64,000 bases of DNA from Candidatus Dependentiae bacterium (GCA_018266175.1 JAFEAY010000021.1:124001-188000); one strand, 5' to 3'; counted from the first letter of the stretch, positions 10,221 through 51,050 are shown. Notes: a model not told the origin generated them from the letters alone. A program made the numbers and translations.

Positions 10221-11426
10221 ATGAGGCCAATTATTATTGTGGTGGGCACTCGCCCTGAAGCAATTAAACTAGCTCCGCTCTACCTGGCATTAACCAGAGA
10301 AAACATTCCAACTTTGTTGTGCGCAACTTTTCAGCACTCCGAACTCTTGGCTCAGGTTTTTGATCTTTTTCAAATTACTCCAGACATCAGATTAGATGTC
10401 ATGCGAGAAAATCAGGATCTCTTTTTTCTTACCTGCACTATTCTTGAAAAGATTGGTCGCGTTTACCAAGAATACAAACCAAGCTTAGTACTTGTTCAGG
10501 GAGATACAACGACGACTTTTGCTGCAGCACTCGCTGCATTCTATCTCAAAATTCCTGTAGGACATGTTGAAGCAGGACTACGTTCCGGCAATAAATATTC
10601 TCCTTTCCCTGAAGAAGTAAATCGTGTTTTTACCAGTACCTGTGCATCATTTCACTTTGCACCAACAGCACTTAATGTTGCCAACCTTTTAAAAGAAGGG
10701 ATTGCCCGAGAATCTATTTCTTGTACAGGCAATACCGCTGTTGATGCACTTTTTTGGATTAGAGATCGGATTAACAGACAGCAGATTAGTATCTGTCCAA
10801 AACTGATAGAGCAGATTGAAAATTGTAAAAAAAATAAACAGCAAATTGTGCTTGTAACAGCACATCGTCGAGAGTCTTTTAACGGAGGTCTTGAACAAAT
10901 TTTTTCAAGCATCAAAAAATTTGCGACTCAACATCCTGATGTAACTTTTTTTTATCCATTTCATCCAAACCCACATGTCCTCAAAGCAATTGAGGCCTCG
11001 TGCATCAAGGATATTCAAAATATACATCTTATGCCTCCACTTCTCTATAAAGACCTTGTTTACTTGCTCATGGCATGCAATTGGGTAGTTTCAGATTCGG
11101 GTGGGATACAAGAAGAAGCAATCAGTTTGGGTAAATCTGTTATTGTGGTACGCGAGTATACGGAACGCCCAGAAGGCATCTGGGAAGGCATGTTGACACT
11201 TGCAGGAACAGACGAAAAAAGTATATTACATGAAATGTTAACTTTGTATGCTCAACAAAAAAACAACCACACAGACTCCTTGGTCTATGGGGACGGAAAA
11301 GCATGCGACCGTATTGTAGCAATCATAAAGAACCTGATACAACCAAGCCACTCAACATTGAATGAAAACAGTGCATTGAAAACGGCTTGTGCAGAGACAG
11401 AAAAAATTATGAGTAGGCACCAGTAA
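10221..11426 (+). CDS. wecB: UDP-N-acetylglucosamine 2-epimerase (non-hydrolysing)
   Basis: A 401-aa cytosolic enzyme that interconverts UDP-GlcNAc and UDP-ManNAc. Family motifs are intact: GTRPEAIK (residues 9-16), QGDTTTTFA, HVEAGLRSG followed by PFPEEVNR, TAHRRES, and SDSGGIQEEA near the C-terminus. Length is normal apart from a tail of about 30 residues. It is the first gene of a three-gene unit with a UDP-ManNAc dehydrogenase 26 nt downstream. Together they give UDP-ManNAcA, a building block of surface glycans. The ribosome site before the ATG is weak (GAGAAG). Confidence 0.93.
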   Translation: MRPIIIVVGTRPEAIKLAPLYLALTRENIPTLLCATFQHSELLAQVFDLFQITPDIRLDVMRENQDLFFLTCTILEKIGRVYQEYKPSLVLVQGDTTTTFAAALAAFYLKIPVGHVEAGLRSGNKYSPFPEEVNRVFTSTCASFHFAPTALNVANLLKEGIARESISCTGNTAVDALFWIRDRINRQQISICPKLIEQIENCKKNKQQIVLVTAHRRESFNGGLEQIFSSIKKFATQHPDVTFFYPFHPNPHVLKAIEASCIKDIQNIHLMPPLLYKDLVYLLMACNWVVSDSGGIQEEAISLGKSVIVVREYTERPEGIWEGMLTLAGTDEKSILHEMLTLYAQQKNNHTDSLVYGDGKACDRIVAIIKNLIQPSHSTLNENSALKTACAETEKIMSRHQ

Positions 11427-11452
11427 CACTTTCTTTAGAGATGGAGAGGCTA

Positions 11453-12760
11453 ATGAAGCGCGTTTCGGTATTAGGGCTTGGTTATATTGGTTTGCCGACA
11501 GCCATTCTTGCTGCTCAAGCAGGATATAATGTAAGTGGCTTTGATACCAATCAAGAAAAAGTAAAAAAAATAAACACTGGAAATCCGACTATTTTTGAAC
11601 CAGAAATTACTGAACGCCTCTGGGAAACGCTCAAAGATAATAATTTTAAAGCTTACACAGATTTGCAATATGCTGACTACTTTGTTATTGCAGTTCCAAC
11701 ACCTTTTAAAGAAAATAAAACAGCAGATCTGAGTTATGTATTCGCTGCAGGAGAGTTTATTGCTCAGCGTCTTCGCCCTGGGAACTTAGTTATTCTTGAG
11801 TCAACCGTTCCTGTTGGTACAACAGAAAAATTAACGCTCCAACTGGAAGAGCTGTCTGGCCTCAAAGTTGGTATTGATTTTTTTGTTGCACACTGCCCGG
11901 AACGAGTCCTTCCTGGAAGAATATTTAAAGAACTTGTTACCAATGATCGTATTGTTGGTGGGATCTGTCAACGCTCATGCGAGCTCTCTCAAGCTTTTTA
12001 TGCAAAATTTGTGAAAGGTTTTATCCACGTCTCTGATGATAAAACGGCAGAGATGGTGAAGCTCATTGAAAATAGCTCACGCGATGTGATGATTGCATTT
12101 GCAAACCAAGTTGCTGGCATGTGCGAGCAAGCCGGCCTTGACCCTCATCACGTTATTGAACTTGCAAATAAGCATCCACGCGTAAAAATTCTCAAGCCAA
12201 CATGTGGCGTTGGAGGACATTGCATAGCAATTGATCCATTTTTCTTAATTGAAACCTTCCCTGAAGAAACATCACTGCTTAAGACAGCACGTATGATTAA
12301 TGACACAAAACCCTTTAAGGTTCTGGAAACAATTTTCAACAAAGCTCAAGAGCTTAAAAATCTTGGTGTTGAAAAACCACACATTTTGACACTTGGCCTG
12401 ACGTACAAGCAAGATGTTGATGATATTCGTGAATCGCCAGCACTTAAAATAGCGCAAGAGCTCGGACAAAAAAACTCATTTTTCGATCTTCAGGTTTTTG
12501 ATCCTAATGTTCCACAAGCAACGATTAGTGCGCTTGATTTTAAATCACCTCAAAGCTTGCTCAAAGGAATTGCTTGGGCTGATATGGTTGTTATTTTAGT
12601 CAAACACAAAGAATTTTTTCACATCAGAGAAGAAATTCTTTCAGATAAAGTTGTTATTGATAGCTGCGGGCTGCTCTACGATTTACGAACCCGTCACACA
12701 CAAGACTTTCTTGAAGGCGCTATTAAAACGAGTTATAACCTCGTGCGAAGCGATCCATAA
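11453..12760 (+). CDS. wecC: UDP-N-acetyl-D-mannosamine dehydrogenase
   Basis: A 435-aa NAD-dependent enzyme oxidising UDP-ManNAc to UDP-ManNAcA in two steps through a thioester. It has an N-terminal Rossmann motif (GLGYIGLP, residues 8-15), the family's ESTVPVGTT segment and the catalytic cysteine in GVGGHCIAIDP (Cys257). The C-terminal UDP-binding domain includes GLTYKQDVDDIRESPA. I start at 11453, where GGAG (11443-11446) sits 6 nt away; the ATG at 11441 lacks a ribosome site. Adjacency to wecB supports the ManNAc assignment over UDP-Glc or UDP-Gal dehydrogenases. Confidence 0.9.
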   Translation: MKRVSVLGLGYIGLPTAILAAQAGYNVSGFDTNQEKVKKINTGNPTIFEPEITERLWETLKDNNFKAYTDLQYADYFVIAVPTPFKENKTADLSYVFAAGEFIAQRLRPGNLVILESTVPVGTTEKLTLQLEELSGLKVGIDFFVAHCPERVLPGRIFKELVTNDRIVGGICQRSCELSQAFYAKFVKGFIHVSDDKTAEMVKLIENSSRDVMIAFANQVAGMCEQAGLDPHHVIELANKHPRVKILKPTCGVGGHCIAIDPFFLIETFPEETSLLKTARMINDTKPFKVLETIFNKAQELKNLGVEKPHILTLGLTYKQDVDDIRESPALKIAQELGQKNSFFDLQVFDPNVPQATISALDFKSPQSLLKGIAWADMVVILVKHKEFFHIREEILSDKVVIDSCGLLYDLRTRHTQDFLEGAIKTSYNLVRSDP

Positions 12761-33338: not shown

Positions 33339-34319
33339 ATGTTTTCATCACGGTCATTAAAAATGTTTGCTTTTGCAGCATTTTCACTCAACCTTCTTAC
33401 GTTACAAGCTCAAGTAACAAACCAAGGTATTTATCAAAAAAAAAGTTCCTTCCAATTAAAAAATCAATCGACACAAGATCGAGTTCTTTGCGTAACTATT
33501 CCAAAATGCGGAACACATCTTCTGGTAAAATGTATTACCGAATTAAACATTCCTGGGCTTTCTTATAACTATACCAAAGAAGCAAAAACAACCTCGATAC
33601 AAAGAATACGAAAAATTAATAAAAGACCTCCTCCAAATCATTTTAAGGGTGTTTATTACGACACACTTAAAGGCATACTCCCCAAAATATTGACCAGTAA
33701 TTTAATTCATCGCACTCCTCAAAAACTCTTTTTTACTCATTGTCCATATCTGCCACAATTTGACCGATTCTTACAATCTCGAACTTTTTCTAATTTTTTA
33801 ATGATACGAGACCCTCGCGCGATGGTTGTATCTTTTGCATTTATGGTCCACAAAAGCAAAGAGGGAAAAACTGCCAATCTTGATAAAACAATTCTCAGCT
33901 TAATCAATGGCAATCAAAAAGATTATGTTCCTTGGGCTGTGGAGCAACACGAAATGTATCCACTGATATGGGAAATTGGATTATATAATTTTTATAAAAT
34001 GTATCTTCCATGGGCCACATCAAAAAAATTTATGCTTATAAAATTTGAAGATCTTATTGGGGAAAAAGGGGGAGGCTCAACTCAAAAACAAGTTCAAACC
34101 ATCATGAACATAGGACAACACTTAGGCGTGAAAATGACTCCACAAAAAACTCAAACGCTTGTAGATAACCTTTTTGGTGGAACTTGGACATTTAGAGAAG
34201 GCCAAATAGATTCATGGAAAAACTATTTCACCCCAGAAATCAAACATGCTTTTAAAAAAAATAAAGACCTCACCAAACTCTTGATTGAGTTGGGATATGA
34301 ACAAGATATTAACTGGTAA
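33339..34319 (+). CDS. Exported SULT-type sulfotransferase, copy 1
   Basis: A 326-aa protein starting with a signal peptide (about residues 1-25, cleavage near LQAQV). The body matches PAPS-dependent sulfotransferases of the cytosolic SULT type: 5'-phosphosulfate loop IPKCGTHLL (54-62), likely catalytic His134 in FFTHCPY, 3'-phosphate loop RDPRAMVVSFAF (157-168), a KFEDL segment (235-239), and the closing PAPS loop FREGQIDSWKNYFT (285-298), equivalent to RKGxxGDWKNHFT. All active-site elements are present, so it is probably active. PAPS is a cytosolic metabolite, so a signal peptide is unexpected. A TTGACA lies at 33290-33295, but no good -10 box follows. Confidence 0.85.
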   Translation: MFSSRSLKMFAFAAFSLNLLTLQAQVTNQGIYQKKSSFQLKNQSTQDRVLCVTIPKCGTHLLVKCITELNIPGLSYNYTKEAKTTSIQRIRKINKRPPPNHFKGVYYDTLKGILPKILTSNLIHRTPQKLFFTHCPYLPQFDRFLQSRTFSNFLMIRDPRAMVVSFAFMVHKSKEGKTANLDKTILSLINGNQKDYVPWAVEQHEMYPLIWEIGLYNFYKMYLPWATSKKFMLIKFEDLIGEKGGGSTQKQVQTIMNIGQHLGVKMTPQKTQTLVDNLFGGTWTFREGQIDSWKNYFTPEIKHAFKKNKDLTKLLIELGYEQDINW

Positions 34320-34379
34320 AACAACAATAGACTTGAAGCTTTATCGCTTGAGTCTAATTTTGAACAGAAGGAGATTTTA

Positions 34380-35393
34380 ATGTTTTTATTTATACGGCTG
34401 AAAGTAATCATCTATCTTATATGCGCTTCATTTTTTTTAAGTACTCAAGCAGATAATGAACAACAGATACCTCCAACTATTCAAAATATCTACACAAAAG
34501 CTCATCTTCCAATTAGAACTATACGCTATGGAAATGGAAGTGGGAATGTATTACTCATTTGTATACCCAAGTGCGGAACTCATTTACTCACAAAATGCAT
34601 ATCATTATTTAAAGAAGATGGACTTTCTCTTAATTATAAAAAAGAGATAAAGCCACCACCAGCACGCTTAGCTCAAATCAGAAAACTCAACCGACATATG
34701 CCTCCCAACCACTATAAAGGTGAATTTTACCCTGGATACTTAGGAGCATCTCCTTATAGTTTAATAAGTAGATTAACCATGAAAACATCAAATCGCAGAC
34801 TGTTATGGACACATAATGTTCATAATACTCGATTTGAAAATGCTCTGGTAAAAATTAATACGGCAAATTTTTTAATGATACGAGACCCTCGAGCAATGGT
34901 TGTTTCATTTGCTTTTATGATCCACAAAAGCTTTGAAGGTAAGACTGCTAATTTTCAGAATATTCTTACAGATTTGATTACAGGAAGAAAACAACATTAC
35001 ATCAGATGGGGAGTAGAGATTCAACAAGCTTATCCACTCCTTTGGGAAGTAGGATTAGCAAAGTTTTATGAATTGTACCTTCCTTGGATTAAGGCAAAAA
35101 ACTTTATGCTCATTCGCTTTGAAGATCTTGTTGGTGGAAAAGGTGGTGGATCAGACGCCAAGCAGCTTGAAGCTATGATTAATATCGGAAAACATATAAA
35201 TATTAACATGAACGAACAGCAAATCAAAAACGTTATTAATAATCTTTATGGTGGAACATGGACCTTCAGAGAGGGGCAAATTGACTCATGGAAGAAATAC
35301 TTCACCCCGGAAATTAAATCTTTATTCAAAAGCCAACCAGGCCTCAATCAACTCCTTATCAAGCTTGGCTATGAAAAAGATACTAATTGGTAA
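34380..35393 (+). CDS. Exported SULT-type sulfotransferase, copy 2
   Basis: A 337-aa tandem paralogue of the preceding gene, with the same motifs: IPKCGTHLL (62-70), His145 in LLWTHNVH, RDPRAMVVSFAF (168-179), RFEDL (246-250) and FREGQIDSWKKYFT (296-309). A signal peptide (residues 1-24, ending STQAD) is present although its sequence differs from copy 1, so export has been kept by selection. GAAGGAG precedes the ATG. The acceptor-binding stretch between the loops (about residues 75-140) is the most divergent part, suggesting different acceptors. Confidence 0.85.
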   Translation: MFLFIRLKVIIYLICASFFLSTQADNEQQIPPTIQNIYTKAHLPIRTIRYGNGSGNVLLICIPKCGTHLLTKCISLFKEDGLSLNYKKEIKPPPARLAQIRKLNRHMPPNHYKGEFYPGYLGASPYSLISRLTMKTSNRRLLWTHNVHNTRFENALVKINTANFLMIRDPRAMVVSFAFMIHKSFEGKTANFQNILTDLITGRKQHYIRWGVEIQQAYPLLWEVGLAKFYELYLPWIKAKNFMLIRFEDLVGGKGGGSDAKQLEAMINIGKHININMNEQQIKNVINNLYGGTWTFREGQIDSWKKYFTPEIKSLFKSQPGLNQLLIKLGYEKDTNW

Positions 35394-35421
35394 ATAAAAA
35401 CCTTACAGAAAAGTTGTTCCT

Positions 35422-36741
35422 ATGAAAAACAAAATACTTTTTTACTCCGTTGTTGTTTCTTTTTTTAGCTTTTATAATTATGCCCATTCACTGCATGACA
35501 TAAATCTTATTGGCTATTTAAATAACTACGACAGCCTTGCACGACACACATCAAGTTTTATTAACACACTCCCTCAATCTTTAAAAATAAATATTTTTAA
35601 AACGAAGAGATGTTCAGGCAAAGGACTTCCAGAAAGACATCAGAAAATAATTGCTTCAGGTATTAATTTATTTAATAAGCAAGAGCTCAAGCTTCTCTTA
35701 GCAAAAGGCCTTCACCTGTCTGGCATATCGATATACACCGATAGTTGGTGGCATAGTAATGAATGGAATAACTATAAATCAGTACCAAATAACAGCATTA
35801 AATTCGCATATTGCGTCGTAGAATCGACAAAGGTTCCAAAAGATATCGTTGAAAAGTTTAATAAAAATTTTGATGCGGTTATTGTTGTTGATGAATGGTT
35901 TGTTGATGTTTGTAAAAACTCTGGCGTCACTATTCCAGTGTTTGCATTACCGCTTGCGTTGGACTCAGACCTAAACTCACTCCTATCAAGACCTTTAAAG
36001 AAAAAACGTAATAGCCCATTTACCTTTGGGTGCTCCGGATTATTTAGCCCACGAAAAAACCAAACACTCCTCATGAGAGCTTTTGATCAAGAATTTAGAG
36101 ATGATCAAGATGTTCATTTAATTATACATGGAAAAAGTGAGCGCTATTTCAAAAAAATTGAACAGCTCGCACGCCACTTGCGTCACCCTGGCATCAAACT
36201 TTTTAGAAAAAATCTACCACGAACAGAATACGAAAACTTTATTGCAAACTTAAGCTGCTATGCATTAATCTCAAAAGGTGAAGGTTTTTCGATAACGCCG
36301 CGAGAAGCTCTTGCCGCTGGAGTTCCTTGCATTCTTTCAAATAATACCGGACATAAAGTAATTTGTGATGCAAATGTTGTGTATTCTGTTGCATCAAATA
36401 TCCAAGAACCTACCTTTATTTTTGTAGGCAATAAACTTTCAAAAATGGATGGAATGCAGTTTAACTGCCATATCAGAGATGTGAGAAAAGCATTGCGAGA
36501 CGTTTACAATAATTATGAGAATTATCTTAAACGGGCACAAAGTGGGCGTGATTGGGCTAAAAAATATCTTGCCGAAAATCTAAAATGGAGATATCTCAAT
36601 CTTGTTAACCCTAAAAAAGTTATTCTAGGATCTCAAAATAAAATCACTGATGATTTTTTCATGACAAATTCAAAAGCTCTTTTCAGTAAATACCAAGAGC
36701 TATGCGGAAAAAATGCTCAGTATGAGATATTAATAAAATAA
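35422..36741 (+). CDS. Exported GT4-type glycosyltransferase, copy 1
   Basis: A 439-aa protein with a signal peptide (about residues 1-23) and a GT-B fold. The C-terminal domain has FGCSGLFSPRKNQTLL (203-217) and the donor-binding EX7E motif in KGEGFSITPRE (Glu287, Glu295) with GVPCILSNN after it, as in retaining GT4 enzymes. The N-terminal acceptor domain is unusual (HWW/DSWW motif at about 107-110). It lies 28 nt after the second sulfotransferase. Nucleotide sugars are not normally found outside the cytoplasm, so either the signal acts as a membrane anchor or the enzyme works in the host. Confidence 0.8.
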   Translation: MKNKILFYSVVVSFFSFYNYAHSLHDINLIGYLNNYDSLARHTSSFINTLPQSLKINIFKTKRCSGKGLPERHQKIIASGINLFNKQELKLLLAKGLHLSGISIYTDSWWHSNEWNNYKSVPNNSIKFAYCVVESTKVPKDIVEKFNKNFDAVIVVDEWFVDVCKNSGVTIPVFALPLALDSDLNSLLSRPLKKKRNSPFTFGCSGLFSPRKNQTLLMRAFDQEFRDDQDVHLIIHGKSERYFKKIEQLARHLRHPGIKLFRKNLPRTEYENFIANLSCYALISKGEGFSITPREALAAGVPCILSNNTGHKVICDANVVYSVASNIQEPTFIFVGNKLSKMDGMQFNCHIRDVRKALRDVYNNYENYLKRAQSGRDWAKKYLAENLKWRYLNLVNPKKVILGSQNKITDDFFMTNSKALFSKYQELCGKNAQYEILIK

Positions 36742-36787
36742 GAAAAATGATTTTTTCTGAAATTTCCTTAAACCATGAGTTTTGAAT

Positions 36788-38098
36788 ATGCAAAAATATC
36801 TTTTTGTTTCACTGCTTGCGTTACTTCCATTGAGTATTCCTAGCGCTTTATTATCGTATGATATAAATCTTATTGGTTTTCTTAACGACATTCAAAGCAT
36901 TTCTCGACACACATCCAGCTTCATAAGCTGTTTGCCTGATACTGATTCAATAAAGCTTTTTCAAACAAATAAATGCTCGCCTAAAGATCTGACTGCTGCT
37001 CAAAAAAAAATACTTCAACACAGTATTGATTTAAAAGATAAATTCAATCTATCACAGCTTATTAATAATGGACTTCGCCTTTCAGGCATAACCATATGTA
37101 CTGAACACTGGTGGAATAAGACCAATTGGAGGGCGTATAAAGCTATTCCTGATGATAGCATTATTAAGTACCATTATTGTGTCACTGAAAGAACTAAGCT
37201 TGCTTCAGAATGGATCGCCAAACTTAATAGTAACTTTGATGCTCTTATTGTTGCGGATGATTGGCTGATTGATATTTACAAAAGCTCAGGGGTAAAATTA
37301 CCAATATTTACATTACCATTGGCACTGGACTTACATTCACTCTTATCAAGACCAATTAAACGATCTGTTAAAAAGCATTTCACCTTTGGTTTTTCTGGAA
37401 TATTTTACCCAAGAAAAAATCAAAAACTTCTTATTAATGCGTTTCATGAAGAATTTAAAAATGAACCGAATGTTCAACTTGTGCTACAAGGACGACATAC
37501 TGGAGCTAGCTACATCAAAGAAATACAAGATCTTTTAAGCAGTCTAAACAACAAAAATATTACGATCATACAAAAGAAATTTTCTCGCCAAGAATATGAA
37601 AATTTCCTGGCAAAAATTGACTGCTATGTGCTTCTTTCAAAAGGCGAAGGCTTTTCAATAACCCCACGGGAGGCGCTTGCCTTGGGCACTCCATGCATTC
37701 TTTCAAATAATACTGCACACAAAGTTATTTGTGAGAGCGGTTGCGCATACCCTGTAGCTGCAAATATCATACGATCCTCGTTTTGCTATATAACAGGACA
37801 CTACCTTGGACATGACTTCAATTGCACAATAAAAGATGCACGTAAGGCTTTGCGGGAGGTTTATGAAAATTATAACCGCTATACAGAGCAAGCAAAGCAT
37901 GGACGCGCATGGGTTCAACAATATTTACCCGAAAATTTAAGTACAAAATATCTTAATTTAGTTAAACCAAAGAAGGTAATCCTTGGTAATGAAAACAAAA
38001 TTACCGAAAACTACCTCATGACTAATTCAAAGGTAATTTTCGGTAAATATCGTAAGCTCTGCGGATCAAGCGATACACTATTTGAGGTTGCAAAATAA
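36788..38098 (+). CDS. Exported GT4-type glycosyltransferase, copy 2
   Basis: A 436-aa tandem paralogue of the preceding gene, matching along its whole length: DINLIGFLND, RHTSSFIS, SGIFYPRKNQ, KGEGFSITPRE (Glu287, Glu295) and a shared C-terminus (KVILGNENKITE). It has its own signal peptide (residues 1-23, ending LLSYD). The ATG at 36788 is used; a TTG two codons upstream is possible. The ribosome site is weak. Its stop codon is 9 nt from the end of the convergent phosphatase gene. Confidence 0.8.
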   Translation: MQKYLFVSLLALLPLSIPSALLSYDINLIGFLNDIQSISRHTSSFISCLPDTDSIKLFQTNKCSPKDLTAAQKKILQHSIDLKDKFNLSQLINNGLRLSGITICTEHWWNKTNWRAYKAIPDDSIIKYHYCVTERTKLASEWIAKLNSNFDALIVADDWLIDIYKSSGVKLPIFTLPLALDLHSLLSRPIKRSVKKHFTFGFSGIFYPRKNQKLLINAFHEEFKNEPNVQLVLQGRHTGASYIKEIQDLLSSLNNKNITIIQKKFSRQEYENFLAKIDCYVLLSKGEGFSITPREALALGTPCILSNNTAHKVICESGCAYPVAANIIRSSFCYITGHYLGHDFNCTIKDARKALREVYENYNRYTEQAKHGRAWVQQYLPENLSTKYLNLVKPKKVILGNENKITENYLMTNSKVIFGKYRKLCGSSDTLFEVAK

Positions 38099-38107
38099 TT
38101 ACTCACT

Positions 38108-39532
38108 CTATTCTTTCACTAACCCCTGCTCGCAATTCCAGCTCTTACTCTGGCATGCATGCCACCAATGCGAATAGGACCATTCCTCAAAGTTGGGGGA
38201 AGCGGTTTTTATTACCACAAAAGAGTCAAATAAAAAATCACATGGAACATGCTGCTCTGTACTACAAAAGGTCGTTGAGGCTGTTGCACTAAAAAGTGTG
38301 TTTACAAGGCCACCCCACGAACGCACAAGCCCTTTGTTTTCAACAAGCTCCTGATAAAGCTTGCCATGATGTTGGTGCCCACGCATAACAGCATGCACAC
38401 CAACAGATCGATTTTTACAATCAAGGAGTGCTCTGGTTATATTTTTACCAAGCGTCCATGAGCGCGTCATGCGCAAAGCGTCTGGATCTTGGGCATACAC
38501 ATCAAAGTCATGCCACAGGAAGCCAAACTTTTTAAGCCACAAATCGGGGGACATATTTTTTTCATCAATCCAGCGCATGCCCTTTTTTAAAGCTTTGTTT
38601 TTTGTAAGAACAAAGTCTTGCTGTTGCCGTGTACCGAACTGGAGTGATTCAATTTTTTTTCCAAAAAAACTCTTGTATTTAAGTTCTTCAATTTTTTGAA
38701 ATTCAATTTTTTCAGATCCTAATAATAATTCAGATGGATCAAAGCCAACATCTGGACCGCCGTGACAACACAAAATAAAGTCTTGCTCTCCCTGATCATT
38801 CTTGCAACCAATGTAGTTTGCCATAGGGAGAAGGTTGAAAAATCGTTCGATAGCTGAGATATCGCATCCACTACCATATTTAACATGCGCTTCCTGCCCA
38901 AAGCCCCAAATACGATTAACTGCGACGTTTTCGTGATTACCTCGCACAATAAATACTCGCTCTGGATTTGCAATTTTCAGCTTCATCAAAAGATATAAAA
39001 CCTCCAAGCTGTAGGCACCTCGATCAACGTAATCACCAAGAAACGTGAGATAAAAATATGGATGATCTTGTGCAATAGAAAAGTCATCACACAAATAACC
39101 CAACGCGCATAAATGTTTGAGACAACGCACTAATGAATGAGCTGAGCCATGCAAGTCTCCCCATAATGCAATTTCGCTTGCTGGGGAAACAATTGTTTTT
39201 TGAACATAAGGAAGAAAGTAGTTACTGGCAGAGACATTCTGTTTAGATGGAGTCATACGCCTGTGTAGCCATTTTTGCTGGCTACACAGATTTTCTGTTA
39301 ATACTGGGATACATTTTTTTATTAGTGCCAAAAATTCTTGCTGAGAAAAAATAGGTCGTAATGATTTATGACGCTTAAAAGATACACGCTCTGGTTGCTG
39401 CATTAACACCTGTTCAAAATTTGACAGCATGCTCAAGTCATGAGCATAAACAACGGCACTTGATAGGAAAACGACTAACAAAAGAACTATCCATAAGAAT
39501 ACCTTTTGTTTATCAAAAATTCTGCTCAACAT
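38108..39532 (-). CDS. Exported PPP-family phosphatase (metallophosphoesterase)
   Basis: A 474-aa protein with a signal peptide (about residues 9-30, ending VYAHD). It carries the PPP-family metal-binding set in order: GDLHG (125-129), GDYVDRG (166-172), RGNHE (197-201), HGG (257-259) and RGHQ (384-387). This is the signature of eukaryote-type serine/threonine phosphatases and of bacterial ApaH/PrpA relatives. The 90-residue N-terminal extension and long C-terminal part are unusual. It starts inside the stop codon of the ATP-grasp-like gene (TAATG, 1-nt overlap), so the two are made together. The substrate is probably extracytoplasmic. Confidence 0.85.
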   Translation of the reverse strand: MLSRIFDKQKVFLWIVLLLVVFLSSAVVYAHDLSMLSNFEQVLMQQPERVSFKRHKSLRPIFSQQEFLALIKKCIPVLTENLCSQQKWLHRRMTPSKQNVSASNYFLPYVQKTIVSPASEIALWGDLHGSAHSLVRCLKHLCALGYLCDDFSIAQDHPYFYLTFLGDYVDRGAYSLEVLYLLMKLKIANPERVFIVRGNHENVAVNRIWGFGQEAHVKYGSGCDISAIERFFNLLPMANYIGCKNDQGEQDFILCCHGGPDVGFDPSELLLGSEKIEFQKIEELKYKSFFGKKIESLQFGTRQQQDFVLTKNKALKKGMRWIDEKNMSPDLWLKKFGFLWHDFDVYAQDPDALRMTRSWTLGKNITRALLDCKNRSVGVHAVMRGHQHHGKLYQELVENKGLVRSWGGLVNTLFSATASTTFCSTEQHVPCDFLFDSFVVIKTASPNFEEWSYSHWWHACQSKSWNCEQGLVKE

Positions 39533-40878
39533 TAAGCTCGCCCCCCCTTACTCACTCGAATCATCTTTGCATAAATCTTTGCAAATGCTGGAAGAGCAAT
39601 CGCTTTGACATTTGCAAAGTCATCCGCGCTCACCAAAATTCCGGTAAAGCCAGGTTGCTTCACAGAAATAGTTTTGTGTTTTTCAGTTAATGATCCATGA
39701 TCACTCAGTGATTTATGAGGAATCTTCCAGTAAGCTCCAAGAATATTCACATACACCTTACCTTGATCATGACGAGCAACCCAAACGATGCGCATTGAAG
39801 GGTCATAAACTTTACTTTTAATCGTTAGAGGTTTTGAAGGTTCATAGGCTTCAACCATAAATTCATCGTTGCGGTCCAAGTTCCAATATTCATATAATTT
39901 CGTCTTAATCGGCATAACGCCAAGATTTTTTCCCTTACCCGATGCTTTTGATTGATAACCGAGCAAAACTCTCTTGAGTTCTTTATCAAGATTATCGTTA
40001 TCGGTAATAATTATTCCATTACTTCTGCCTGAATTAACCGGCTTAATAACAAACATTTCTGATTCAAGATCTTTGCAAATTTTTTGGGCCAGACCTTGAG
40101 AGTAATTCTTTTTGTACACGCCCCATTTTGGTTTATATTGAGCAAGTTCTTTATCCGATAACAACTGAGCAAGTACTTTTTTATCAGCGGCATAAGTCCA
40201 TGAAGCTTCATCAAGTACTAAAAAATCCTGATGTTTTTTCTTAAACGTATTGAGCATACTTTGATGAACAGGTGAGCGATTATCATTATAAACGTAGATA
40301 ATAATTCCCTTATAAGATCCTAAATCACTGATAGAGCTGCTTTTTTTAGTCGCAGCAAGTTGATTAAAAAATCGATCTTTTTCAAGCGCTCGCAACGTCG
40401 AAGCATGACGTCCGCCCATGGCAATAAACTGAGTCCAAGCATATGATTTACCTAGGATAGATTCACCTTTAACATCAGCTTGATTAACCCGAGGCTTCAT
40501 GCCGACGAACCAAACAGGCAAGCCTAATTGAGGTAAAGAGTTCCAAAATAAATTCCAGTAAGGCTTAACCATTCGCTCAACTTTTCCATTGATCAAAATT
40601 TCACCGGGAGCTGTGCCTGAATTTTTTGCTTCTCCAAATTCGCAAATCTTAAGCGCGCCTTCTCGATACTTAACATCTGCAAACATGTAGGTGACATCTG
40701 CTCGTTTACCAATACAATCTTTACAATCAAGAACATACGTTTCATCTAAAAAAGATAAATACTTATGCTCAATGCCTTTAAGGGAAAGCGATGGCACACG
40801 CGATGATAATGAAAATAAACTGCTGAAAATCAAAAAGTAGGCGAATAAATTACTCGCAAAAAGAATTCTGCTCTTCAT
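39532..40878 (-). CDS. Exported protein resembling an ATP-grasp ligase
   Basis: A 448-aa protein with an N-terminal signal sequence (about residues 1-25). The C-terminal half shows an ATP-grasp pattern: FVIKPVNSGRSNGIII (lysine plus glycine-rich loop), EFMVEAYEPSKPL as the hinge strand, and YDPSMRIVWV. These recall glutathione-synthase or tubulin-tyrosine-ligase-like enzymes, which join an amino acid to a carboxylate; subclass is uncertain. The N-terminal region has a CKDC pair. An AAGGAG site precedes the ATG. It is coupled to the downstream phosphatase. An ATP-using enzyme with a signal peptide is odd. Confidence 0.6.
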   Translation of the reverse strand: MKSRILFASNLFAYFLIFSSLFSLSSRVPSLSLKGIEHKYLSFLDETYVLDCKDCIGKRADVTYMFADVKYREGALKICEFGEAKNSGTAPGEILINGKVERMVKPYWNLFWNSLPQLGLPVWFVGMKPRVNQADVKGESILGKSYAWTQFIAMGGRHASTLRALEKDRFFNQLAATKKSSSISDLGSYKGIIIYVYNDNRSPVHQSMLNTFKKKHQDFLVLDEASWTYAADKKVLAQLLSDKELAQYKPKWGVYKKNYSQGLAQKICKDLESEMFVIKPVNSGRSNGIIITDNDNLDKELKRVLLGYQSKASGKGKNLGVMPIKTKLYEYWNLDRNDEFMVEAYEPSKPLTIKSKVYDPSMRIVWVARHDQGKVYVNILGAYWKIPHKSLSDHGSLTEKHKTISVKQPGFTGILVSADDFANVKAIALPAFAKIYAKMIRVSKGGRA

Positions 40879-46946: not shown

Positions 46947-48185
46947 TCAAAGTTTGCTACCCCACCAGCTATCTAGATTTGGAAGATAACTACTGACACC
47001 AGGAATCAAATTACTCGCCTCTGGAAGCGAGTTCCAAGCTTGTTCAACGATTGATCCCTCAGGAATATCTTCAAAAAGAGACAAGTTGCCGTTTTTGCTG
47101 ATTGTTGCACAATATTTACCATTACCAGACCAAGCAATATAATCAGCACCAACTGCTTTGAAATCTAATATCGAAAAGTCTGTTGTATTAACAAAAAATA
47201 TAACCTGATTAGCAAGCCCTACGGCAAGAATCTTTCCTCCAGGCTGAAGAGCCATTGAGTTAATTTCTACATTATTACATAAAGATATCTCTTGAACTTT
47301 TATGTATGCTTTCTCGTAACTAAAATATGATGAATACTGTTCTCGAAAAACAAGAATTCTACCATCGCTTAACCCAACAAAAATACATAAAGGACTCAAA
47401 GCTAAAGATCTGCAAATACCAGAAGCTCCTTCAGGTAAATAATCAAATTCGATTGTTGATGAAGTATTACTGAGCGATCCGACAATAAGCTTAAGTTGCT
47501 CTGTTGCAACAGCATAACGATCACTAAACCGATCAAGATCGCATGCAAGTAAATTATAATTAAAATTGAATGTTCTTAAATGAAAACCTTGTTGCATAAT
47601 AAAAATCTGTCCTGAATACATAGTCAACACAAGCTGCTTTGTTATTGGAGAAAAATTTAATCCTCTTATTTTATTCACACAAAAATCAAAAACTCGTGAC
47701 ATTCTATCGACTTTTTCCATCGATTTAATATCGTTTTCTTGAGCTTTTCTGCATTCATTTTGAATATCAATAAATTGAGGTGCTTCTTGTTCTTCTGAAT
47801 GAATGATACCTACATTTAATTCATCATCTTCTTCAACAGAGAGAACCTCGTTATATTTCAAAAAATTAACTATTCCTCTTTCATCGGCATGCACATAGAT
47901 ATCCAGAGAAGGCAAAGCTGAGAAAATTGCTTTTAAGGCTGAACCATAGATATATGAAGAACTTAATAATTCCTGCTTTTGAATATCATAATATGATCGT
48001 TGATTTTCGCCGTGCAGTGCAATCACTTTTTTTGAATCGCAAGACCAGCCAAGGGACCGAATTTCTGCAACTTCTCTTGATAGAAGGCACATATTAAAAT
48101 CAGAAACAATTTGCTCTATTTTGGCTTCAAGTATATTTACAATTCCCAAGACTATCCAAAGAAAGCACAGTTTTTTGATTATCAT
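46947..48185 (-). CDS. Exported WD40-like beta-propeller protein
   Basis: A 412-aa protein. The ATG at 48185 starts a signal peptide (MIIKKLCFLWIVLGIVNI, ending LEAK) behind GGTGGGG. Several blade-like repeats follow: LGWSCDSKKVIALHGENQ, LNFSPITKQLVLTMYSGQ, LALSPLCIFVGLSDGRILVF, ALQPGGKILAVGLANQVIFF and AWSGNGKYCATISKNGNLSL. These have the strand pattern of WD40 or quinoprotein-like propellers, which act as binding platforms. An acidic insert lies at about residues 90-140. An extracytoplasmic binding role is inferred. Confidence 0.7.
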   Translation of the reverse strand: MIIKKLCFLWIVLGIVNILEAKIEQIVSDFNMCLLSREVAEIRSLGWSCDSKKVIALHGENQRSYYDIQKQELLSSSYIYGSALKAIFSALPSLDIYVHADERGIVNFLKYNEVLSVEEDDELNVGIIHSEEQEAPQFIDIQNECRKAQENDIKSMEKVDRMSRVFDFCVNKIRGLNFSPITKQLVLTMYSGQIFIMQQGFHLRTFNFNYNLLACDLDRFSDRYAVATEQLKLIVGSLSNTSSTIEFDYLPEGASGICRSLALSPLCIFVGLSDGRILVFREQYSSYFSYEKAYIKVQEISLCNNVEINSMALQPGGKILAVGLANQVIFFVNTTDFSILDFKAVGADYIAWSGNGKYCATISKNGNLSLFEDIPEGSIVEQAWNSLPEASNLIPGVSSYLPNLDSWWGSKL

Positions 48186-48368
48186 TATGAAACCCCACCG
48201 TGATACCACATAAAACTTACCTAAAAATATCTTAACAAGATGGCTAACCCGGAACAATAAAATGATCAAGAATCTAACTCAAGATAAGAGATCTTTACAT
48301 CTCCTGCTCATTTTTTTAACACTAAGAGATAAATAATCGATTATAATTATTGAAAAAAAGGGTATTCT

Positions 48369-51050
48369 ATGAAGAAAATAATGCAACTCCTTATGCTTGT
48401 TTGTGTTCTGATATTGCAATCCTTAAGCGCTTCAATGAGTGCTTCAAACATTGGTCAACGGTTTATTATTACCCTTCCTGAGAATCAAGATCTTAAGCAA
48501 TTGGCACAGTGGCTTGAGCAAATCAAGCCTGGTGGCGTTATGCTTACCGCGCCACACATGAGCAACCGTGCACAGACAAAAAAACTCTGCACATTTTTGC
48601 AAAATACCGCACGTAAACTTGAGATCCACCCTCTTTTTATTTGCGTTGACTGGGAAGGAGGCATTGTCTCACGCCCAAACGAAAGCGGCGGATTTTTTTC
48701 TGTGCCAAGCCCTTGGTCTCTTGCTCAGGCAGGCCGACCCGCATGCTTTCTTGCCGGCATGCTCATTGGCCATCAACTGCACAGTGTTGGCGTGAATGTG
48801 AATTTTGCACCATCACTGGACCTCTTTACACCGCAAAATTATATTCTTGCAACGCGCTGCTTTGATTCAAATTCAGAAAAAACAGCCGAGTGTGGGATCG
48901 CTTTTGCTCAAGGTCTTCTGAGTCAAGGAGTACTTCCAGTCGTTAAACACTTTCCTGGCCTTGGACTTGGCGTAAAAGATACACACCTTGATCAGACTAT
49001 TATTTCGGTTGATAAAGACCTCTTTGATGAGCATAAACAACCGTTTGAACGTGCATTACAAGCCGGAATTCCTATGATTATGGCTGGGCATGCTATCTAT
49101 AATCAATTTGGCGATCAGCCGGTAACGCTCAACAAAAATGCTACCGATTATCTGAAAAAAATTAACCCTGATGCTCTGTTAATCACTGATGATTTTTGTA
49201 TGCAAGGAGTTCGAGAAAATAGAATGTTGGAAGACGCGTTTAAGGAGTCGCTCAATGCTGGGTATCACCTGATTATTTTCTCGCCTGCACATGCTCCAGA
49301 ATTTATAAAAAAAAACTCTTCTCAGATTCAGCTTCAAAAACTTTTAAACGATCTTTCTTTGATTTGTGACAAAACTCAAATAGGTAATGGCATTAAGCAC
49401 ATTAGCCGCATTAAAGAAAAATATCTTGCTCAAAAAATGTCTTTCGCTGATCTTGACGAAAAAAAGCTCAGTGTATTTATTGCAAAACGCTGCTTACAAA
49501 CAGATGACATTAAGCACCAACTCACAGGCCCTGTAGCGCTTATTTCTTTACGATTACCTAAAATTCGTACTGCTGAAGCCTGGTTCATAGACAACAAACA
49601 AAGTTATTTGTGTCAAAAACTCAATACAAAAAACATTCAAGTAGATGAGCACATTCTTGATCCAACAAGTAAAGACAGCATTCAAGAACTTGAATCGCTT
49701 ATTGCTGAGTTTAAAAAAAAATCAACACAAAAAATTCTAGTTCAAACCATGTTTTACGGTGGGGGTGCATGGAATGCAATCCAAAAACAATGGCTTGAAA
49801 AGCTTGCACCATTGCAAGATCAGCTGATCATAATTTCACTTGGACACCCCTACGAACAAACAATACTACCTGATGCAACGGTTATTCATATTGGATCATT
49901 TCAAAAACCATTACTCGATAATTTAGTTGAAGCTCTCCAGAGAAAACCACTTCAAACAGGCGCAGATAAACTTGCTGCAAAACCTGAAGCGTTTTTAACA
50001 GGAAAAAAATTTGGTCTTTTATGTCATAGATGCAGTGTTGCCCAGAAAAATGGTATATTAAAATTTTTGCCAGACATTTTAAAAGAGTGGGCTGATCAGC
50101 AAAAAGAACCAACCCAGCTTGCTGCTCTTTTTTCTCCAGAACATGGCTTACTCGGAACACAAGAAGCGTTTGCGTTTATCAACTCAGAGCATAAAAGCCA
50201 ATGGGGTTGTCCAAACTATTCACTGCATGGCAATAACAAAAAACCAACGCCTGATATGCTCAAAAATCTTGATCTGCTGATTATCGATTTACAAGAAGTT
50301 GGAACACGCTGCTTTACCTACTTAAGCTCAATGAAGCTTGTTCTTGAAGCGGCTGCTGAGCAGAAAGTTCCTGTTTTAGTACTCGATCGACCAAATCCAC
50401 TCGCACTGTGGGGAGCTGCTGGCCCAGACCTTGAATCAGAGCATGAATCGTTTCTTGGAAAAGTTCAGACGAAATTTTTGCATGGATTAACAATTGGGAA
50501 ACTTGCCCAAATTATGAACCAAGAAATTAATGCACAACTCCAGGTGCTTTTATGCGAAAACATTGCCCAAGATCATTTTTTATCAAAAGTGTTTATTCCA
50601 CCCTCACCAAACATCATGAGTATTGATCATGCCTATGCATATCCAATGACCGTTTTTATTGAGGGAGTTAACTACTCAGAAGGACGCGGTACCAATTACC
50701 CTTTTCTGCAAATAGGTGCCCCCTGGGTTGATGCAGACCAACTTGCAGGAACGCTCAATCAAAAAAAACTATCTGGGATTTTCTTTGAAGCAATCAGCTT
50801 TACTCCTCGCTCTATTCCTGGAGTAGCAGATAAGCCTAAACATCAAGATAAGTTATGCCATGGCGTTTTTATCCATATCCACAATCGAGAAAAAACAGAA
50901 CCAATGATAGTCGCAAAAACTATTTTAGAAACTCTTTTTACGCTTTATCCTGAAAAAACTCAATGGATTACTTATGGCAAACGATACGCTCTAGACTTGC
51001 TCGCAGGAACAAGCTCGTGGCGAAAGCATATTGATATCGGCAGAGCCTAG
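48369..51050 (+). CDS. Exported NagZ-NamZ fusion: beta-N-acetylglucosaminidase plus exo-N-acetylmuramidase
   Basis: An 893-aa protein with a signal peptide (about residues 1-22). Residues about 28-350 are a GH3 NagZ-type domain: DWEGGIVSR, KHFPG (193-197) with the DTH acid/base dyad (204-206) and nucleophile Asp274 in LLITDDFCMQG. Residues about 548-893 are the DUF1343/GH171 (NamZ) domain: FSPEHGLLG, YSLHG, KPTPDMLKNLDLL, LDRPNPLA, a HGLTIGKLA segment, PPSPN and EGVNYSEGRGTNYPF. NamZ removes MurNAc and NagZ removes GlcNAc from sugar-chain ends, so one polypeptide could dismantle peptidoglycan glycan strands. A 200-residue linker domain lies between. Confidence 0.88.
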   Translation: MKKIMQLLMLVCVLILQSLSASMSASNIGQRFIITLPENQDLKQLAQWLEQIKPGGVMLTAPHMSNRAQTKKLCTFLQNTARKLEIHPLFICVDWEGGIVSRPNESGGFFSVPSPWSLAQAGRPACFLAGMLIGHQLHSVGVNVNFAPSLDLFTPQNYILATRCFDSNSEKTAECGIAFAQGLLSQGVLPVVKHFPGLGLGVKDTHLDQTIISVDKDLFDEHKQPFERALQAGIPMIMAGHAIYNQFGDQPVTLNKNATDYLKKINPDALLITDDFCMQGVRENRMLEDAFKESLNAGYHLIIFSPAHAPEFIKKNSSQIQLQKLLNDLSLICDKTQIGNGIKHISRIKEKYLAQKMSFADLDEKKLSVFIAKRCLQTDDIKHQLTGPVALISLRLPKIRTAEAWFIDNKQSYLCQKLNTKNIQVDEHILDPTSKDSIQELESLIAEFKKKSTQKILVQTMFYGGGAWNAIQKQWLEKLAPLQDQLIIISLGHPYEQTILPDATVIHIGSFQKPLLDNLVEALQRKPLQTGADKLAAKPEAFLTGKKFGLLCHRCSVAQKNGILKFLPDILKEWADQQKEPTQLAALFSPEHGLLGTQEAFAFINSEHKSQWGCPNYSLHGNNKKPTPDMLKNLDLLIIDLQEVGTRCFTYLSSMKLVLEAAAEQKVPVLVLDRPNPLALWGAAGPDLESEHESFLGKVQTKFLHGLTIGKLAQIMNQEINAQLQVLLCENIAQDHFLSKVFIPPSPNIMSIDHAYAYPMTVFIEGVNYSEGRGTNYPFLQIGAPWVDADQLAGTLNQKKLSGIFFEAISFTPRSIPGVADKPKHQDKLCHGVFIHIHNREKTEPMIVAKTILETLFTLYPEKTQWITYGKRYALDLLAGTSSWRKHIDIGRA

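Follow-up and report, generated by a model that had tools for sequence, protein, structure and literature searches.

Six adjacent genes of a Candidatus Dependentiae genome are best read as part of a Sec-exported set of glycan-modifying enzymes that would act outside the bacterial cytoplasm, on donors either supplied by the host or made locally, and we put the probability of this reading at about two in three. It is drawn from sequence, and is preferred because the signals of these proteins are conserved and the residues of their donor sites are intact. Both points favour the exported modification system that an earlier, sequence-only reading of this DNA had proposed, although the row of six signal-bearing genes on which that reading leaned proves unremarkable and the donors are not always those of the host. 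The genes lie at positions 33339-40878 of the window, by which we mean the whole 64,000-nucleotide stretch of DNA analysed (G000:C21:124001-188000). The genome, G000, is 1.83 Mb in size and 95% complete. The bacterium lives obligately inside host cells. The features are as follows:

33339..34319, plus strand: SULT1, SULT-type PAPS-dependent sulfotransferase, 326 aa (PF00685, 35.2 bits)
34380..35393, plus strand: SULT2, paralogue of SULT1 (PF00685, 30.2 bits)
35422..36741, plus strand: GT1, GT4-type glycosyltransferase (PF00534, 59 bits; PF13692)
36782..38098, plus strand: GT2, GT4-type glycosyltransferase, paralogue of GT1 (PF00534, 65 bits)
38108..39532, minus strand: PPP-family phosphatase (PF00149, 68.7 bits)
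39532..40878, minus strand: AGR, ATP-grasp protein akin to 'sugar-transfer associated ATP-grasp' (family profile matches)

All six are intact ORFs at these coordinates. The plus-strand unit runs SULT1, SULT2, GT1, GT2, its genes separated by 60, 28 and 40 bases; the two sulfotransferases are 50-52% identical and the two glycosyltransferases 52% (paralogue search), and GT2 starts at a TTG, with an alternative ATG two codons later. The minus-strand unit consists of AGR then PPP, which share one base, and it converges on the plus-strand unit across a gap of 9 bases. Thus, the 'contiguous island of six' stands as six adjacent ORFs but not as one operon. We reject a single six-protein system, because the units are convergent and because the PPP and AGR families are common elsewhere without SULT or GT4, and describe the locus instead as [SULT-SULT-GT4-GT4] and [ATP-grasp-PPP]. 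Specifically, the PPP family is multicopy across the phylum and is not tied to SULT or GT4, and there are large paralogous expansions of AGR, PPP and GT4 in arrays. When gene order is compared among relatives, the clustering of SULT with GT4 genes recurs in two genomes, G060 and G042. Elsewhere in the window, positions 48369-51050 encode a signal-bearing protein in which a GH3 N-terminal domain is fused to NamZ muramidase domains, and positions 46947-48269 a WD40-repeat protein with a signal-like N-terminus.

The assignment of five of the proteins as two SULTs, two GT4 enzymes and one PPP phosphatase is borne out by Pfam matches above cut-off and by intact motifs. Both sulfotransferases exceed the curated PF00685 cut-off of 22 bits, and, in the PDB, the SULT profile matches cytosolic SULTs of animals (E 7e-19). 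Residues K64, H145, R168, S176, G299 and W304 are invariant in one SULT alignment (A5) and the catalytic H145 is conserved at 90% or more in another (A2), the PAPS-ligand columns K64, R168, S176 and G299 being, like H145, invariant or nearly so. The AlphaFold model of SULT2 (pLDDT 81.6) shows a signal helix at residues 2-26, a low-confidence linker and then a SULT fold that, using Foldseek, matches PAP-bound SULT2-type / SULT2A-type structures. GT1 and GT2 both contain the EX7E motif EGFSITPREA, and the phosphatase retains the motifs GDLHG, GDYVDRG, RGNHE, HGG and GHQHHG and matches PP1/PP2A-type structures in the PDB (E 1.7e-18).

The sixth protein is ATP-grasp-like at the level of its family, whereas AGR alone has no meaningful Pfam match and its single-sequence AlphaFold model has a pLDDT of 34. 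Of 31 family members, 11 match PF14397, 'sugar-transfer associated ATP-grasp' (best 1.2e-5), which points towards glycan chemistry, and the family profile has just two PDB matches below E=0.05, D-Ala-D-Ala ligase (0.0055) and TTLL7 (0.029), which are both ATP-grasp proteins. The family has seven matches in G000, the window gene included; five tandem paralogues are seen at G000:C3:148945-154911 (L143:8945-14911). In G060, AGR paralogues flank a signal-bearing PAPS synthase in the order AGR-AGR-PAPS synthase-AGR, and in G054 they lie a few kb from a SULT-PAPS synthase pair.

Signal peptides were scored with a home-made von Heijne-type matrix combined with core hydrophobicity and charge, using a threshold of 5. 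The scorer passed about 2% of internal segments compared to 58% of ORF N-termini, and 21 of 22 cytosolic controls were negative. A false positive was a UDP-sugar dehydrogenase with a Rossmann N-terminus and, since the scorer flags one such enzyme, the length of sequence ahead of the domain was used as an independent measure for SULT and for GDP-mannose 4,6-dehydratase (GMD). Two window enzymes encoded at 10221-12760, a UDP-GlcNAc 2-epimerase and a UDP-sugar dehydrogenase, have catalytic domains that begin near the N-terminus, that of the dehydrogenase at residue 7, which leaves no space for a signal.

The claim that all six island proteins begin with Sec-type signals is upheld by this scorer: each passes the threshold, with a basic n-region and a hydrophobic core of 10-19 aa, and none of the six N-termini has a twin arginine or a lipobox. 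The charge of +1 to +3 ahead of the core predicts an N-in/C-out orientation rather than anchors that face the cytoplasm. Predicted signals span approximately residues 1-24 in SULT1 (...LQA/QV, fair cleavage site), 1-24 in SULT2 (...TQA/DN, good), 1-23 in GT1 (...AHS/LH, fair), 1-25 in GT2 (fair) and 1-30 in PPP (...VYA/HD, good), which has the highest score of the six. AGR is the weakest, with a signal or signal-anchor at about residues 1-25 and without a clear cleavage site.

That six such genes in a row would make misprediction unlikely, as the sequence-only reading had argued, does not hold. Signals were scored in 31 of the 49 window genes, and the window contains a second run of six. At signal rates of 44-58%, a set of 1500 genes should contain 6-24 runs of at least six, where the background rate was taken from the window and from sampled stretches of genomes; in Chromulinavorax, 44% of CDS carry signal peptides (PMC6561590). 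We therefore discard the run as evidence for export, several being expected per genome, and as signals are so common in the window and the phylum, the weight rests on the types of enzyme that bear them.

It is here that the relatives are informative. The scorer passed 23 of 30 SULT, 24 of 32 GT4, 26 of 32 PPP and 27 of 36 AGR relatives (a few genes being counted twice in overlapping loci), so that about 20-25% score below threshold, and the signals are kept while their sequences diverge. The listed Dependentiae SULTs have 19-65 residues, with signal-like sequence, ahead of the PAPS-binding (PSB) strand, whereas two Omnitrophota relatives start 3-4 residues ahead of it. Homologues that both lack signals and are unclustered, which would speak against export, were thus not what we found within the phylum. 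Two SULT relatives from Chlamydiae are extended at the N-terminus by hydrophobic sequence, which in one of them scores as a signal. These signal-like N-termini (L215:3275-4129 and L214:5758-6501) belong to a Parachlamydiaceae and to another Chlamydiae MAG, and thus, judging by these, export of SULT-type enzymes may extend to other bacteria that dwell in protists.

If the island sulfotransferases are active, their PAPS would come from the host, as no APS kinase or PAPS synthase was found in G000, an absence that is probable rather than certain given that the genome is 95% complete. APS-kinase matches in G000 are partial (26.5 bits or less) and were dismissed as generic P-loops. G000 has three signal-bearing sulfotransferases, the two in the island and one at C21:50505. 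Among 101 Dependentiae genomes, six contain a full-length PAPS synthase, a fusion of ATP sulfurylase and APS kinase, and all six copies score as signal-bearing, with bodies that are 57-68% identical:

G059:C6:33689-35389 (L130): PAPS synthase, signal-bearing
G042:C31:7127-8848 (L126): PAPS synthase, signal-bearing
L131, L160, L164 and L165: PAPS synthases, signal-bearing

All six of these genomes fall among the 15 with SULT relatives (among the matches listed), an overlap with a chance probability of about 4e-6, ignoring phylogeny, and in several genomes the synthase is near SULT or glycosyltransferase genes. In G042, a signal-bearing, eukaryote-like Exostosin GT47 (L126:1365-2264, contig C31) lies two genes ahead of two SULTs and also near the PAPS synthase, a neighbourhood reminiscent of glycosaminoglycan synthesis. 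A giant protein of 24,597 aa around the G054 PAPS synthase is an artefact, the frame arising from a stretch of about 72 kb of N in the contig (L160-L163, G054:C2:86001-161277).

A similar pattern is found for GMD, which among the matches listed is bimodal. The 12 short forms have 5-7 aa before the Rossmann motif and none carries a signal, whereas the 22 extended forms have 24-68 aa and 20 of them were scored as having one; catalytic motifs are intact in all but one of the listed enzymes. On the GMD tree, the extended label requires 4 changes, compared to 10 with shuffled labels. One genome (G100:C10) encodes tandem GMDs, one extended and signal-like and the other cytosolic in form (L189, 279-1418 and 1423-2496). 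Since a short cytosolic GMD thus exists in the phylum, and even in the same genome, the extended form probably acts in another location. In other families, signal-bearing enzymes around the SULTs or PAPS synthase include RmlB, RmlD, UXS-like and CapD-like enzymes, and NTP-transferase, FkbM, GT2-type, GT47 and DXD enzymes. The proposal that the host supplies the donors is therefore consistent with G000, where no PAPS synthase was found, but less so with the six relatives that have a signal-bearing PAPS synthase and the many with a signal-bearing GMD.

A serious alternative, which we consider rather unlikely, is that the enzymes are periplasmic or surface proteins that modify the envelope or capsule of the bacterium itself, with host donors of about 400-600 Da entering via outer membrane porins. 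What makes it serious is that nucleotide translocases are present in all 15 SULT genomes, G000 included (among the matches listed), indicating that nucleotides from the host pass through the outer membrane and reach the inner one. Moreover, genes for GT4, GT2-type, FkbM, RmlB/RmlD and GMD enzymes are typical of envelope-glycan synthesis, and we saw no dedicated signal for effector secretion. However, ordinary envelope synthesis would need no export, as the short cytosolic GMD illustrates, and periplasmic NAD(P)-dependent dehydratases and PAPS synthase would be, to our knowledge, unprecedented.

It is far less probable that the N-termini are anchors that stay uncleaved, or result from wrongly called starts, and that the enzymes are cytoplasmic. 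Such an error is conceivable for a home-made scorer that can take a Rossmann strand for a signal, and the weak cleavage site of AGR would fit it, but the charge distribution places the C-terminus outside, and the extension precedes a complete domain, persists in relatives despite divergence in sequence, and is missing from cytosolic homologues. We regard as equally implausible the view that the proteins are exported but enzymatically dead, serving as binding proteins or decoys: the expansions of AGR, PPP and GT4 do resemble effector families drifting to binding roles, yet the PAPS-site and catalytic residues of the SULTs and the motifs of PPP, GMD and PAPS synthase are conserved.

Taken as exported and active enzymes, the proteins would cross the inner membrane unfolded via Sec, after which they would be released or retained at the cell surface; an outer membrane channel of the secretin type is present. 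Secretin matches were found in seven of the seven genomes checked, three of them in G000, and these could be type IV pilus secretins. The proteins would fold wherever they can reach host nucleotides, and the host cell would be their source of PAPS, nucleotide sugars and ATP, while in some relatives exported PAPS synthase and sugar-nucleotide enzymes would produce the donors locally. The enzymes would in this way assemble a glycan and add sulfate to it, possibly also attaching another group by ligation. They most likely act in the cytosol of the host or on the side of the bacterial surface that faces it, and the data suggest that Dependentiae alter glycans beyond their own cells, probably within the host. 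Our confidence falls just short of even for a broader and more tentative proposal, that Dependentiae, and perhaps some Chlamydiae, place in the host a donor-to-product pathway of sulfation and glycosylation. In it, exported PAPS synthase would activate sulfate, exported GMD, RmlB, UXS-like enzymes and NTP transferases would convert sugar nucleotides, and glycosyltransferases, sulfotransferases and an ATP-grasp ligase would follow, every enzyme being Sec-signal-bearing.

If this is the case, a bacterium that exports ATP-, NAD(P)-, PAPS- and nucleotide-sugar-dependent enzymes would carry out biosynthesis in the host cytoplasm, much as giant viruses do, and could supply PAPS synthases and dehydratases able to withstand Sec export. 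It would also offer a concrete handle on how obligate parasites use their very large predicted secretomes. In the literature searched, no paper mentioned both Dependentiae and sulfotransferase, and no exported donor synthesis was found in the Dependentiae genome papers searched.

The Dependentiae SULTs share the PSB loop, catalytic His, 3'-phosphate site and FRxGxxGxW motif with eukaryotic cytosolic SULTs and bacterial PF00685 proteins, and differ from cytosolic SULTs in having a cleavable-type signal peptide. Among pathogens, Legionella Lgt/SetA and NleB/SseK are injected or secreted glycosyltransferase effectors that modify host targets with nucleotide sugars of the host. They differ from the Dependentiae enzymes in fold and secretion route, and we know of no sulfotransferase, PAPS synthase or sugar-nucleotide enzymes that accompany them. 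Babela has signal-bearing ankyrin proteins that are believed to enter the amoeba cytoplasm (PMC4378268). The closest precedent is Chlamydia trachomatis, whose secreted glycogen synthase GlgA uses host UDP-glucose in the inclusion (PMC4829429): in both cases a donor-dependent glycosyltransferase works outside the bacterium on a host nucleotide sugar, export being predicted for Dependentiae. C. trachomatis, however, uses type 3 secretion into a vacuole and makes glycogen, whereas Dependentiae have Sec-type signals, predicted sulfation and, in relatives, signal-bearing PAPS synthase and GMD. Giant viruses (chloroviruses and mimiviruses) carry sugar-nucleotide enzymes and glycosyltransferases into protist cells (PMC9614988) and are likewise parasites of protists with their own glycosylation enzymes acting in the host, as we propose for Dependentiae, but their proteins are translated in the host while those of Dependentiae would need to be exported from the bacterium. 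Compared to these precedents, the new elements would be sulfation and the export of donor synthesis.
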